This document shows positions 52,995 to 57,678 of a stretch of DNA of 64,000 nucleotides, piece after piece (the stretch's first letter is position 1; each line of letters starts with the position of its first letter). Origin of the DNA: Bacillus sp. V5-8f (GTDB lineage Bacteria; Bacillota; Bacilli; Bacillales; DSM-1321); contig NZ_PGUW01000007.1 in NCBI RefSeq assembly GCF_002863565.1, positions 186,001 through 250,000 on the forward strand, in the 5' to 3' direction. The translations under genes and the position numbers were made by a program. The notes under the pieces were generated by a model, which searched no databases, had not been told where the DNA came from, and saw nothing but the letters and a program-made list of their open reading frames with translations.

Positions 52995-54848
52995 ATGTGT
53001 GGGATTACTGGATGGATTGATTACCGGAAAAATGTTGGGAATGAGACTGATATTGTGGGCAAAATGACTGAAACGCTGTCTAAACGCGGCCCTGACCAAA
53101 CAAATGTATGGACGGATACACATGCAGCGTTTGGCCATAAGCGCCTCACCGTTGTAGATCCGGAAGGCGGTTGCCAGCCAATGCTAAAAGAGCATCGGGA
53201 AAGAACATATATACTGTGCTACAATGGCGAGCTGTACAACACGGATGATATTCGAAAACAATTGTTATTAAAAGGATATTCCTTTAAAGGTCATAGTGAT
53301 ACAGAAGTTTTACTAACTTCTTATATTGAATGGAAAGAAAATTGCATGGATTTGTTTAATGGGATTTTCGCCTTTGCGATCTGGGATATGGAGGAGCAAA
53401 AATTGTTTATGGCCAGAGACCGGTTGGGCGTTAAACCTCTGTTTTATGCAGAGAAAGGCGGAGGATTCCTGTTTGGTTCGGAGATAAAGGCAATCTTGGC
53501 CCATCCAGACATGTCGGCCCAAATTGACAGAGAAGGGCTTGCGGAGGTTTTTGGTCTTGGTCCGTCACGCACACCAGGGTCAGGGGTGTTCCGCGGCATT
53601 AAGGAATTGCGCCCGGGACACGCATTAACATTATCGGCAGGAAAGGGATTAAGAGTCTGGCGCTACTGGAATGTGAAAAGTGAAGAGCACACCGATTCGT
53701 TGCAGGAAACCACGGAAAAAGTACGCTTCCTAGTGAATGATGCGGTTACAAGGCAGCTTGTCTCGGATGTCCCACTTTGTACATTTTTATCCGGAGGGGT
53801 CGATTCAAGCGCCATTACGGCTATAGCAGCGAGAGCGTACGAGCAAGAAGGCAAAGGCAGGCTTCATACTTATTCCATCGATTACCAAGATAATGACTTG
53901 TTCTTTAAAGAGAATGCATTCCAGCCGAATTCGGATGGACCGTGGATTAAATTAATGTCCGAGGCATTTAATACAGTGCATCATAGCTCCGTGATTTCAC
54001 AGGAATCCCTTGCTGATTACTTAACAGAGGCTGTCCATGTAAGGGATTTGCCGGGAATGGCGGATATTGATTCATCACTTCTTTGGTTTTGCAAGGAAAT
54101 TAAAAACAATTTTACTGTCGGGCTTTCTGGGGAATGTGCGGATGAAATTTTTGGCGGCTATCCATGGTTCCACAGGGAAGATGATTTAAGCCGCACTGGT
54201 TTTCCATGGATGCGTTCAACCAGTGCAAGGGTGTCATTATTAACAGAAAACTGGCAGACGAAATTAAAGCTTAAAGAATATGTACAGGAAAAGTACTTAC
54301 AAACGGTTGCAGAAGTCCCGCGACTGGATGGAGAAACAGGGGAAGCTGCCAAAAGGAGAGAATTATTTTATTTAAATATCCTATGGTTCATGGCGACGCT
54401 GCTAGACCGAAAAGACAGGATGAGCATGGGTGCAAGCCTTGAGGTCAGGGTTCCATTTGCAGACCATCGCCTCGTTGAATATGTTTGGAACATCCCATGG
54501 GAAATGAAGATGACCGGAAATAGGGAAAAAGGCATTCTTCGGAAAGCATTGGAAGGGCTATTACCGGAAGAAGTGCTGTACCGAAAGAAAAGTCCATACC
54601 CGAAAACGCATAACCCTGCCTACACAAATAGAATCCAATCGTGGTTGAAAGAAATTTTGGCTGACCGGAATTCGAGTCTGCATGAGTTCTTTGATAGAGG
54701 AAAATTAAATGAAATTGTGGAGTCAAAAGGTGCGTCCTTCGAGATTCCATGGTTCGGGCAGCTTATGACTGGGCCGCAGCTTTTAGCGCATCTTGCCCAA
54801 ATACATGTCTGGTTTAAGGACTATGATATTAAACTGATTGAATCATAA
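52995..54848 (+). CDS. asnO: Asparagine synthetase (glutamine-hydrolysing) AsnO
   Basis: Class II asparagine synthetase, 617 aa. Nucleophile Cys2 (MCGITGWID) of the N-terminal glutaminase, with CYNGELYN; synthetase PP-loop LSGGVDSSAI near residue 264; RKDRMSMGASLEVRVPFAD follows. In B. subtilis AsnO (YisO) matters for sporulation. Single gene with a strong terminator. Confidence 0.95.
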   Translation: MCGITGWIDYRKNVGNETDIVGKMTETLSKRGPDQTNVWTDTHAAFGHKRLTVVDPEGGCQPMLKEHRERTYILCYNGELYNTDDIRKQLLLKGYSFKGHSDTEVLLTSYIEWKENCMDLFNGIFAFAIWDMEEQKLFMARDRLGVKPLFYAEKGGGFLFGSEIKAILAHPDMSAQIDREGLAEVFGLGPSRTPGSGVFRGIKELRPGHALTLSAGKGLRVWRYWNVKSEEHTDSLQETTEKVRFLVNDAVTRQLVSDVPLCTFLSGGVDSSAITAIAARAYEQEGKGRLHTYSIDYQDNDLFFKENAFQPNSDGPWIKLMSEAFNTVHHSSVISQESLADYLTEAVHVRDLPGMADIDSSLLWFCKEIKNNFTVGLSGECADEIFGGYPWFHREDDLSRTGFPWMRSTSARVSLLTENWQTKLKLKEYVQEKYLQTVAEVPRLDGETGEAAKRRELFYLNILWFMATLLDRKDRMSMGASLEVRVPFADHRLVEYVWNIPWEMKMTGNREKGILRKALEGLLPEEVLYRKKSPYPKTHNPAYTNRIQSWLKEILADRNSSLHEFFDRGKLNEIVESKGASFEIPWFGQLMTGPQLLAHLAQIHVWFKDYDIKLIES

Positions 54849-55199
54849 GGTTCTCCCGGGCAAAAATCAGTACTTCACAGGTACTAGTACGAGCGAACAA
54901 CTGCATTCGGAAACAAGCCGTAAAGGAAATAATAGATAGGAAAAGGCGCAACAATTCACTTAATGAACGGTTGCGCCTTTTCCTTTATTTATGCTTGTTT
55001 GGCTGTAATGAAATTATAGGTTTGCATTATTATTATCATAACCTTTAATTTTAATAAATCTACGAAAACAGCAGGTGGCAACTGAACGAAAATTTGGTTT
55101 ACCAGTCGTTCCGCCCTCTCCGTTCAGATTCATGTTTGACGGTTGAGTGACAAAAAGCTAATCTTATAGTCGTAGAGAAGTATAGTAGGGGGAGCGGAT
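54849..55199 (+). other. asnO-GH13 intergenic region
   Basis: The asnO terminator is AGGAAAAGGCGCAAC (54938-54952) with GTTGCGCCTTTTCCT (54970-54984), T-rich after. A candidate promoter follows: TTGAGT (55143-55148), 16 bases, TATAGT (55165-55170). No gene. Confidence 0.75.
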
Positions 55200-56723
55200 A
55201 TGGTAAATAGAGTGCTGGCACTCGTTTTGATTCCGTTTCTTCTTTTTAACGGCCTTAAAGTAAGCGCTGTCGAAAAAGAAGAGCGATCTTGGCAAGACGA
55301 AGTGATTTATTCCTTGATGGTTGACCGATTTAACGATGGTAATACAAAGAACGCAAACGATGTGAACGTCACTGACCCCACCGCCTACAATGGCGGGGAT
55401 TTTAAAGGGATTGAAGAACAGCTTGATTACATAAAAGACATGGGTTTTACAGCAATTTCACTGACGCCTGTATTTGACAATGAAGACCGGGGCTACCATG
55501 GTTATTGGATTCGGGATTTTTATAAGACAGAAGAACATTTCGGCACAATAGAAGGCTTTAAAAAGCTTGTAAAGGAAGCTCATAAACGGGATATGAAAAT
55601 AATAGTAGAATTTCCAGTGAACCATGTCGGACCAAACCATCCCTGGCTTAATGATCCAGATAAAAAGGATTGGTTCCTGGAAAAAAGCGCAAGTGAAGGC
55701 AGAAATGCTCAAGGCGGAGAGCACGCTGTGTGGGCAGAGGATTTGCCTGAATTGAACCTAGATAATCAGGAGACAAGGACCTATTTTCTTGATGCAGCCA
55801 AATGGTGGGTACATGAGACTGACATTGACGGCTACAGCCTTGGAAGACTTGAGCATGCACCGAAGGATTTTTGGACCGATTTTTCAAAGGCTGTTAAGGT
55901 GGAGAAACAAGATTTCTTTTTGGCGGGACAGATAACAGAAGATGAACCCCAGACAATTGAACAGCTTAAAAAAATTGGTATAGATGGAATCATGGACATG
56001 ACAAAAGCCGAACAATTACGGGAAGCTTTCAGCAGGACGGATCGGCCCCTGAGCGAAGTTGTTACTGGGTTTGGTGGTGGGGAATCCTCCAGGAACATGA
56101 TGAGCTTTATCGATAATTATGAAATGTCCCGTTTTACCAATGAAGCTATGGCGAAGAAACAACATCCTGGAACGCGGTGGAAAATGGCGTTATCCTATCT
56201 ATACACCGTCCCAGGAATGCCGGCTGTATATTATGGTACTGAAATTGCCATGAATGGGGGCAAAGTGCCTGACAATCATCAGATAATGGCATTTAAAGCG
56301 GAACAGGAGCTAATTGTTTATATCACTAAGCTTGCCGAACTGCGAAAACAGCTGCCTTCGCTGACGAAAGGCGATGTCCGGCTTCTTTATGAAAAGGATG
56401 GAATGTTGATATTTAAGCGGACATACAGAGATGAAACGGCAATCATTGCGATCAACAACACATCAAAGTCCCAAACAGTCACGTTGGATAAGGATATAAT
56501 AGAAGAAGACAAAGAGCTAAGGGGATTGCTTGCAGGAGACTTAGTACGGAGCAAGGGTGAAAAATATACAATCGTTCTTGACCGTGAAGTTGCCGAAGTA
56601 TATGTGCTCACTGATAAATCTGGTTTAAATGTCCCGTATTTGGCCATTATGGGTGCGGTCTACGCCGCGTTTGCGGTTTTCATTATCGTAATATGGAAAA
56701 GGGCACGTCGGGATAGGGGATAA
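55200..56723 (+). CDS. GH13 (alpha-amylase-fold) membrane-anchored protein lacking catalytic residues
   Basis: 507 aa. An N-terminal signal peptide (VLALVLIPFLLFNGL) and a C-terminal membrane anchor (LAIMGAVYAAFAVFIIVIW then KRARRDRG) place it on the outer face of the membrane. The (beta/alpha)8 barrel is clear: DEVIYSLMVDRFNDG, NGGDFKGI, YHGYWIRDFY and PGMPAVYYGTEIAMNGG. The active-site residues are changed: Asp of region I is Glu137; Arg and nucleophile Asp of DGFRxD are Ser213 and Gly215; acid-base Glu is Gln244; the NHD of region IV is Asn-Tyr-Glu (306-308). It should be inactive as a glycosidase and may bind glucan or act as a scaffold. Single-gene unit with its own promoter and terminator. 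Confidence 0.88.
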   Translation: MVNRVLALVLIPFLLFNGLKVSAVEKEERSWQDEVIYSLMVDRFNDGNTKNANDVNVTDPTAYNGGDFKGIEEQLDYIKDMGFTAISLTPVFDNEDRGYHGYWIRDFYKTEEHFGTIEGFKKLVKEAHKRDMKIIVEFPVNHVGPNHPWLNDPDKKDWFLEKSASEGRNAQGGEHAVWAEDLPELNLDNQETRTYFLDAAKWWVHETDIDGYSLGRLEHAPKDFWTDFSKAVKVEKQDFFLAGQITEDEPQTIEQLKKIGIDGIMDMTKAEQLREAFSRTDRPLSEVVTGFGGGESSRNMMSFIDNYEMSRFTNEAMAKKQHPGTRWKMALSYLYTVPGMPAVYYGTEIAMNGGKVPDNHQIMAFKAEQELIVYITKLAELRKQLPSLTKGDVRLLYEKDGMLIFKRTYRDETAIIAINNTSKSQTVTLDKDIIEEDKELRGLLAGDLVRSKGEKYTIVLDREVAEVYVLTDKSGLNVPYLAIMGAVYAAFAVFIIVIWKRARRDRG

Positions 56724-56756: not shown

Positions 56757-56791
56757 AGATGAAGCAGGGGATATGCTTCATCTATTTTTTT
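56757..56791. terminator. Terminator between GH13 gene and SDR gene
   Basis: AGATGAAGCA pairs with TGCTTCATCT, then ATTTTTTTC; T-rich on both strands. Confidence 0.9.
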
Positions 56792-56808: not shown

Positions 56809-57678
56809 CTATCCATTAACGACCTTGCCGCCATTTACATGAATCATTTGGCCACTGATATAGGATGAATCATCACTAGCCAAGAAGACATAAGCAGGTG
56901 CGAGCTCTTCAGGCTGACCTGCCCGGCCCATTGGCGTGTCACTTCCGAACTTGGCTACCTGGTCTTCGGTAAAAGTGGAAGGAATAAGTGGAGTCCAAAT
57001 TGGCCCGGGCGCTACACCATTGACCCTTATTCCGTCCTTGGAAACAGAATTGGACAGCGCTCTTGTGAATGAGACAATGGCTCCCTTCGTGGAAGAGTAA
57101 TCAATAAGCTCGGGATGACCCTGGTAGGCTGTTATAGAAGCCGTATTGATTATGCTGCTGCCCTTTTTCAAATGTGGGAGAACCGCTTTTGTAAGATGGA
57201 ACATTGCAAAGATATTCGTTTTAAAGGTTTTTTCAAGCTGTTCTGTCGAAATATCAAGCAGGCTCTTTTGTGGATGCTGTTCACCGGCATTATTAACCAG
57301 GATATCAACGGAACCAAATTCACCCAGCGTTTTCTGAACAACCTCTTTGCAAAACGCCTCATCACCGATATCTCCAGAGAGAAGCAGGCATCTTTGCCCA
57401 GTTTGTTCGACCAGTTCCTTAGTGGCGCTCGCATCTTCATGCTCCTCCAAGTACACAATCGCAACATTAGCCCCTTCCTTTGCATAATAGATGGCAACGG
57501 ATTTCCCGATTCCACTGTCGCCTCCAGTTATGATGGCCGTTTTTCCCTTTAATTTACCGCTTCCTTTATATTCAGATTTGACTGACTCCGGATTAGGAGT
57601 CATTTCGGTCTCGACTCCGGGCTGTTGTTCCTGGTGCTGCGGCGGAAATGTTTGTTTACTTTTCTCTTGACTGCCCAA
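56809..57678 (-). CDS. Short-chain dehydrogenase/reductase (SDR)
   Basis: 289-aa NAD(P)-dependent oxidoreductase of the classical SDR family with the extended N-terminal tail of the YhdF/YhxC/YhxD/GSP39 group. Cofactor motif ITGGDSGIGKSVA (about 49-61), NNAGE, catalytic Ser-Tyr-Lys in SITAYQG and YSSTKGA, then VAPGPIWTPL. Ribosome site GGAGGG lies upstream. Substrate unknown; related genes are sigma-B controlled. Confidence 0.93.
   Translation of the reverse strand: MGSQEKSKQTFPPQHQEQQPGVETEMTPNPESVKSEYKGSGKLKGKTAIITGGDSGIGKSVAIYYAKEGANVAIVYLEEHEDASATKELVEQTGQRCLLLSGDIGDEAFCKEVVQKTLGEFGSVDILVNNAGEQHPQKSLLDISTEQLEKTFKTNIFAMFHLTKAVLPHLKKGSSIINTASITAYQGHPELIDYSSTKGAIVSFTRALSNSVSKDGIRVNGVAPGPIWTPLIPSTFTEDQVAKFGSDTPMGRAGQPEELAPAYVFLASDDSSYISGQMIHVNGGKVVNG

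Follow-up and report, generated by a model that had tools for sequence, protein, structure and literature searches.

Among the closest described relatives of the gene studied here are the active GH13_45 alpha-amylases BaqA, whose host now bears the name Rossellomorea aquimaris, ASKA and GTA. The subfamily now also takes in proteins with an aberrant catalytic triad (PMC11239784). According to Sarian 2017, 27 BmaN1-like proteins carry Lys, Glu and His at the triad positions, and in seven intermediates (sequences 28–34), whose domain B is more like that of BaqA, all three triad residues are replaced "without an obvious regularity" (PMC5347038). Nowhere in that paper do the terms operon, transporter, gene cluster or maltodextrin occur. 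BmaN1 itself, from Bacillus megaterium, keeps the acid/base Glu231 and Asp203 next to the nucleophile position, and an activity of 8.4 U/mg was reported for the partially purified enzyme (PMC5347038). Produced in E. coli, it gave 1.54 U/mg as refolded full-length protein and 1.69 U/mg in truncated form (PMC11448133).

We analysed a 64,000-nt stretch of Bacillus sp. V5-8f (contig NZ_PGUW01000007.1, positions 186,001 to 250,000), which in its whole length is called the window. The gene at 55200..56723 on its plus strand is an open reading frame of 507 codons with no internal stops and encodes a GH13_45-type membrane-anchored pseudo-alpha-amylase of 507 aa, identified from the frame, Pfam and solved relatives. 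An earlier sequence-only reading of this DNA had described an alpha-amylase fold with a signal peptide and a C-terminal anchor, and Pfam domains and hydropathy agreed with it. The Pfam Alpha-amylase domain covered residues 40–360 (1.3e-45), and a C domain (Alpha-amylase_C_2) was found at residues 391–468 (56370..56603, plus strand). The signal-peptide-like N-terminus (residues 1–23, with a putative cleavage site; 55200..55268, plus strand) is accompanied by a hydrophobic 15-mer within residues 1–30 (mean Kyte-Doolittle 2.5); the signal peptide of ASKA has 23 residues (PMC4791539). At the other end, residues 481–499 are strongly hydrophobic (mean Kyte-Doolittle 2.54) and basic residues come next, so that hydropathy predicts a membrane anchor with a basic tail to residue 507 (56640..56720, plus strand). 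All 59 degenerate representatives share this pattern, as do 80 of the 81 triad-intact ones. The sole exception, L189 (G144), has Asp/Glu/Asp and an adjoining mdxF; stops were counted inside its match, and its open frame has no C-terminal anchor. Residues 475–505 aligned, as a hydrophobic segment, with the GH13_45 C-terminal stretch and its five aromatics. One published reading takes the aromatics of this stretch as starch-binding; we set it against the transmembrane helix that the TASKA and BmaN1 authors predicted there in ASKA (PMC4791539) and BmaN1 (PMC11448133), with which hydropathy agrees. Together, these predicted features place the window protein at the cell surface.

The best solved relatives were the GH13_45 amylases 5a2b/5a2a from Anoxybacillus and 4e2o, the Geobacillus GTA, with a phmmer value of 1.2e-169 to 5a2b. 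In alignment with these structures, the motif GYRLDTVKH of the active enzymes became GYSLGRLEH in the window protein, GEV became GQI, and FLDNHDT became FIDNYEM. Codons 213–215 (55836..55844) change the catalytic-site Arg to Ser213 and the nucleophile Asp to Gly215, codon 244 (55929..55931) changes the acid/base Glu to Gln244, and codons 307–308 (56118..56123) change His to Tyr307 and the transition-state Asp to Glu308, all on the plus strand. The coordinates, the intact frame and the Gly215/Gln244/Glu308 set of the sequence-only reading proved exact against the reading frame and the alignments with active GH13_45 enzymes. Its further statement that the Arg and His of the site were gone was right as regards Ser213 and Tyr307, but His100, His142 and His219 remain. 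That reading had also left room for catalytic residues at alternative positions; the active-site regions of the sequence alignments showed no such Asp/Glu/Asp set. The Trp202-Trp203 pair is present (KWWV), and the CSR-V signature LPDlx reads LPELN, with Asp changed to Glu.

With Gly215-Arg216, Gln244 and Glu308, the window protein shows neither the Asp-Glu-Asp triad of the classical (BaqA) subgroup nor the pattern of the BmaN1 subgroup (Lys then Asp, Glu, His). It matches the published description of the "intermediate" group of Sarian 2017 and may belong there. The claim that no such protein was known in Bacillus is not supported, given the 27 BmaN1-like and seven triad-substituted proteins published in 2017 (PMC5347038). 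A new active site specific to the degenerate members was considered and rejected because no strong substitution is common to them: the highest shares were 0.66 for Val instead of Thr at position 143, where triad-intact members are mixed, and 0.61 for Ser in place of a well-conserved Thr at position 89. Nor did the degenerate members hold a conserved residue set of their own that would mark such a site.

The gene is flanked upstream by an AsnO-like asparagine synthase (52995..54848, plus strand) and downstream by a short-chain dehydrogenase (56809..57678, minus strand), which Pfam and synteny identify as the two borders of the ancestral operon site. The order AsnO-[mdx genes]-GH13-SDR-YitK-DegV-YitT is common, whole or in part, to Cytobacillus, Mesobacillus, Rossellomorea and others; the flank names yisK, asnO, yitK and yitT and the mdx/mal names follow B. 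subtilis. No recognised transporter gene lies between AsnO and YitT in the window. What is left is a deletion scar of about 28 bp (55134..55161, plus strand), the mdxG 3' end including its stop codon, as aligned with the intact mdxG of P. loiseleuriae and others; it matches the last codons and stop of P. loiseleuriae mdxG, whose protein ends in SGLTAGGTKG. The window scored 24 for this remnant against 10 for the best shuffle, and a remnant, defined by a score of at least 16 and above all 100 shuffles, preceded 25 of 55 degenerate genes without mdxF. The 60–70 bp before the start codon are conserved among the window, P. glennii, P. cavernae and strain V59.32b, and sequence further upstream aligns poorly. 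We considered these conserved 60 bp as a new regulatory element and dropped the idea, since the mdxG remnant and the old intergenic spacer explain them; they may also hold the promoter. A sigma-A-like promoter candidate, TTGAGT-16-TATAGT (55143..55170, plus strand), overlaps the scar as a consensus match, of which the region has 6 against 4.6 expected. An intrinsic-terminator-like hairpin, likewise a consensus match, lies downstream (56757..56783, plus strand).

Because of its sequence homology and syntenic position, the window gene is best read as an orthologue of the active GH13_45 alpha-amylases (BaqA, ASKA, GTA), not as a separate family. The window's genome (4.43 Mb) appears to belong to Peribacillus, and its nearest named relatives are P. 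glennii (77%) and P. cavernae (66%). All 36 genomes of the genus and all 43 of the family carry an orthologue, with near full-length matches free of stops except in G008, where the match is partial and the frame broken. At E 1e-70, 226 of 397 sampled genomes of the order carry the gene. MdxF was present without the GH13 gene in 102 order genomes, and among the 125 without MdxF at E 1e-90, 56 had the GH13 gene and 69 had neither. The gene is retained throughout the genus, but not throughout the order. Four records titled Chryseobacterium sp. ISL-80, Pseudomonas sp. ISL-84 and two Paenibacillus sp. (L084, L086, L090, L091) show Bacillaceae-type loci, and their names look wrong.

Within the genus, 5 of the 36 genomes keep Asp/Glu/Asp (G010, G011, G023, G026, G032), 30 have lost at least one residue, and G008 is unreadable. 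In the clade of the window, L010–L012 keep the nucleophile and acid/base and have lost the Arg and the third Asp; all three acids are lost in the window and P. glennii. Across the wider sample, 232 proteins from loci L008–L240 (without L188) were reduced by identity of their last 450 residues to 198, of which 123 carry Asp/Glu/Asp, one (L181) lacks data at the catalytic positions, and the remainder fall into 44 further combinations. For the tree, built by a "quick" method with the catalytic regions left out, L181 (broken frame) and L159 (partial) were omitted, and the remaining 196 were clustered at more than 90% identity with equal triad state into 140 representatives, which include L164 and L166 with cut frames. 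On this tree the triad state changed at least 17 times, and at least 14 of the changes are forced by well-supported (starred) branches.

In the triad-intact relatives read in detail, the gene stands directly behind mdxE-mdxF-mdxG. A cyclomaltodextrinase gene on the opposite strand was seen in L094 and L074, malL accompanies the gene in some of these relatives, and a LacI-type regulator comes behind. Of the 80 named loci, 71 have more than 6 kb on both sides (the 9 lacking flank were left out), and in these MdxF adjoined 51 of 56 triad-intact genes vs 1 of 15 degenerate ones (Fisher p 7e-10). The corresponding counts were 51/56 vs 3/15 for MdxG, 51/56 vs 4/15 for MdxE and 52/56 vs 5/15 for MalR; those for CMDase and MalL were unusable, since the queries also match the GH13 gene itself. 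Among 134 representatives, mdxF adjoined 65 of 75 genes with Asp/Glu/Asp vs 4 of 59 without it. These are the 140 minus six without an operon call, the calls being assigned by hand with L232 (mdxF at about 4 kb on the other side) scored as present and L201 and L216 as absent. Fourteen independent pairs on starred branches gave means over random pairings of 9.9 in which the two characters changed together, 0.5 opposed and 3.6 with no difference (sign test, median p 0.004, range 0.001–0.15). When the Arg and His were also counted, 15 pairs gave 11.4 together and 0.3 against (median p 0.001, range 0.0005–0.02). Genome-wide, no MdxF homologue was found at E 1e-50 in 35 of 50 degenerate vs 3 of 52 triad-intact genomes, and the window's genome has no match to MdxF (E 1e-50), MdxE (1e-40) or cyclomaltodextrinase (1e-100). 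At the sequence level, the coupling of an importer gene absent beside the GH13 gene, a lost triad and a retained protein recurs across the tree.

Two loci, L079 and L129, match only 130 and 173 of the 280 MdxG residues and have each lost one catalytic acid; they look like early stages of loss. The exceptions are four degenerate genes that adjoin mdxF (L078, L186, L196, and L164 with its cut frame) and 10 triad-intact genes without an adjoining mdxF. Complete mdx operons stand beside the triad-less genes L186/L245 (G033) and L196/L249 (G141), which implies that loss of catalysis does not require loss of the importer; L249 and L245 could make visible a non-catalytic role inside the importer system. 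In two Peribacillus genomes, MdxE, MdxF and cyclomaltodextrinase occur together on another contig (G035:C1:393242-398160 and G027:C2:36361-41280), and the GH13_45 copy left at the asnO site is degenerate. Orphan MdxE-like binding proteins lie upstream of the pseudo-amylase without mdxF/mdxG at L072, L135, L140, L241, L242, L244 and L246. Trp280, which we assume to be sugar-binding as in maltose-binding proteins, is missing in 7 of 7 orphan copies, and of the 56 MdxE copies in operons at least 95% have it; L078, L245, L249 and L250, where a degenerate GH13 gene goes with a whole or nearly whole operon, were placed in neither group. Because the orphan copies are without Trp280, the comparison suggests that sugar handling faded in both surface proteins, orphan MdxE and pseudo-amylase. 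Among titles and abstract starts in the open-licence literature, we found no link between importer loss and triad loss; this link is our addition, the kind of protein itself being already published.

We compared the window gene with that of P. glennii, both triad-less. Over residues 28–507, dN was 0.126, dS 0.77 and dN/dS 0.165; over the whole frame dN/dS was 0.182, compared with 0.02–0.21 for nine neighbouring genes, of which only DUF418 (0.21) was higher. A neutral simulation at half that dS produced a mean of 15.2 stops per lineage and a minimum of 4 in 1000 runs vs none in the window gene. The proposal of a membrane-anchored pseudo-enzyme maintained by the cell is supported by this purifying selection (dN/dS 0.165–0.18). 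Median dN/dS was 0.10 for degenerate pairs (n = 198) vs 0.046 for triad-intact pairs (n = 130), the pairs not being independent and many degenerate ones coming from one clade (L019–L036, L183–L185). Constraint is relaxed, as the degenerate value is about twice the triad-intact one, but it is real. The sequence-only reading had held that orthologues retaining the residues would mean recent decay. On this point the outcome is mixed: some orthologues do keep the triad, yet the loss is common to the window and P. glennii (dS about 0.7–0.8) and the frame has been constrained since. With its low dN/dS, its stop-free frame and a counterpart in every genus genome (one of them broken), the window gene is not a decaying pseudogene.

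At 23 sites that triad-intact members conserve, many degenerate members have lost the residue. Twelve of these are catalytic, cleft or Ca1-site positions (Tyr102, Asn141, His142, Asp184, Arg213, Asp215, Glu244, Asn306, His307, Asp308, Asp356, Arg360). Asn141 and Asp184 are the counterparts of the TASKA Ca1 ligands Asn139 and Asp182, the numbering being shifted by two (PMC4791539). The other 11 are Glu112, Val139, Ile204, Val217, Val220, Pro250, Ile261, Gly301, Phe303, Ile342 and Tyr344. The nine C-domain sites (residues 385–469) that triad-intact members conserve have a mean retention of 0.95 in degenerate members; for the conserved sites of the five regions from residue 25 to 384 it is 0.62–0.81.

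In the window, an absent importer, an mdxG remnant, substituted catalytic residues and an anchored protein kept under purifying selection are found together, as read from the DNA itself. We consider it probable that this gene encodes a formerly importer-linked GH13_45 amylase that lost catalysis after the importer was lost and was kept for a second role. The ancestral enzyme would have cut maltodextrins at the membrane and fed MdxEFG; with the importer lost, hydrolysis would have brought no gain and selection on catalysis would have stopped. A second, catalysis-independent role on the outward side of the membrane would hold the protein thereafter, carried perhaps by the barrel scaffold, C domain and anchor rather than the old substrate cleft; our leading guess is that it binds a partner protein or some component of the cell envelope. 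We also offer, tentatively and as a real possibility, the wider proposition that GH13_45 surface amylases have two functions, with a hidden membrane role that persisted after catalysis had gone in at least a dozen separate lineages, chiefly those that lost the linked importer genes, and with the window protein as its pure form.

A surface protein that binds glucan in the manner of a lectin, capturing starch or glycogen without cutting it, appears unlikely. His100, Tyr102, Trp103, His142 and His219 remain in the cleft region of the window protein, and several Peribacillus keep MdxE beside the pseudo-amylase without mdxF/mdxG; against this, the window has lost Arg213, His307, Asp356 and Arg360, its Thr246 aligns with the subsite +2 Trp244 of TASKA, degenerate members often lose Tyr102, Asn141 and His142 along with these four, and Trp280 is missing from the seven orphan MdxE copies. 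Among the residues that degenerate members have lost, those of the cleft stand out; this makes it unlikely that the old cleft binds glycans and weakens the glucan-binding purpose first suggested for the protein. An accessory subunit of a transporter, non-catalytic like rBAT/4F2hc, would suit the ancestral position behind importer genes and the similar architecture of those proteins, one membrane segment and a GH13-fold ectodomain without a known glucosidase role (PMC8537225); we hold it improbable given the lack of MdxF and MdxE matches in the window's genome, at the thresholds above, and of a recognised transporter gene from AsnO to YitT. It is more doubtful still that the protein continues to catalyse by way of an aberrant active site, the claim made for BmaN1. 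Although BmaN1, whose locus L174 is orthologous, was reported active, it keeps a Glu and a neighbouring Asp, whereas the window protein has neither nucleophile nor acid/base (Gly215-Arg216, Gln244, Glu308); substitutions in the family are irregular, as the 44 combinations among the 198 proteins (the one row without data uncounted) attest, and no strong degenerate-specific site emerged. Least credible, and very improbable, is a functionless pseudogene in decay. The dN/dS above that of triad-intact pairs, the broken frame of G008 and the stops counted inside the matches of G144, G087, G063 and G074 would agree with it, but 35 of the 36 genus genomes show an open frame across the match, selection is purifying, and about 15 stops per lineage would be expected under neutrality.

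The pseudo-enzyme is real and well supported, and its kind is already in print; the evolutionary pattern to which it belongs is recurrent, and we found no account of it among titles and abstract starts in the open-licence literature. If catalysis but not the protein has been lost repeatedly, the catalytic annotation of the family misses part of its function. Peribacillus presents a series that begins with the intact operon, passes through partial losses and ends in an orphan gene with a deletion scar; it provides natural experiments on the proposed second role and warns that the label "alpha-amylase" in these genomes can be wrong. There is a bearing, too, on the reported activity of BmaN1, which has the same site, an aberrant triad and no adjoining mdxEFG. 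BmaN1 matches L174/L253 (G203), with the same C-terminal stretch, Lys/Glu/His and an asnO-linked site without mdxEFG, and it looks like another product of importer loss.

Compared with known systems, the window protein resembles the GH13_45 amylases (BaqA, ASKA/TASKA 5a2a-c, GTA 4e2o) in its fold by homology, chromosomal position, Trp pair, LPxL region and C-terminal hydrophobic segment, and differs from them in its substituted catalytic residues, LPEL for LPDL and the lack of an adjacent mdxEFG. The comparison with rBAT/4F2hc made in the sequence-only reading stands as an analogy in architecture, not as membership, and falters on the neighbouring transporter genes, which are absent here. Those SLC3 proteins likewise carry a membrane-anchored ectodomain of the alpha-amylase family on one transmembrane segment, but they are vertebrate, are anchored by the other chain end and are covalent partners of SLC7 transporters (PMC8537225). 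With the BmaN1 group the window protein shares the subfamily, the asnO-linked locus and a substituted triad; in contrast to BmaN1, reported active with Glu231 and Asp203 in place, it keeps neither residue.
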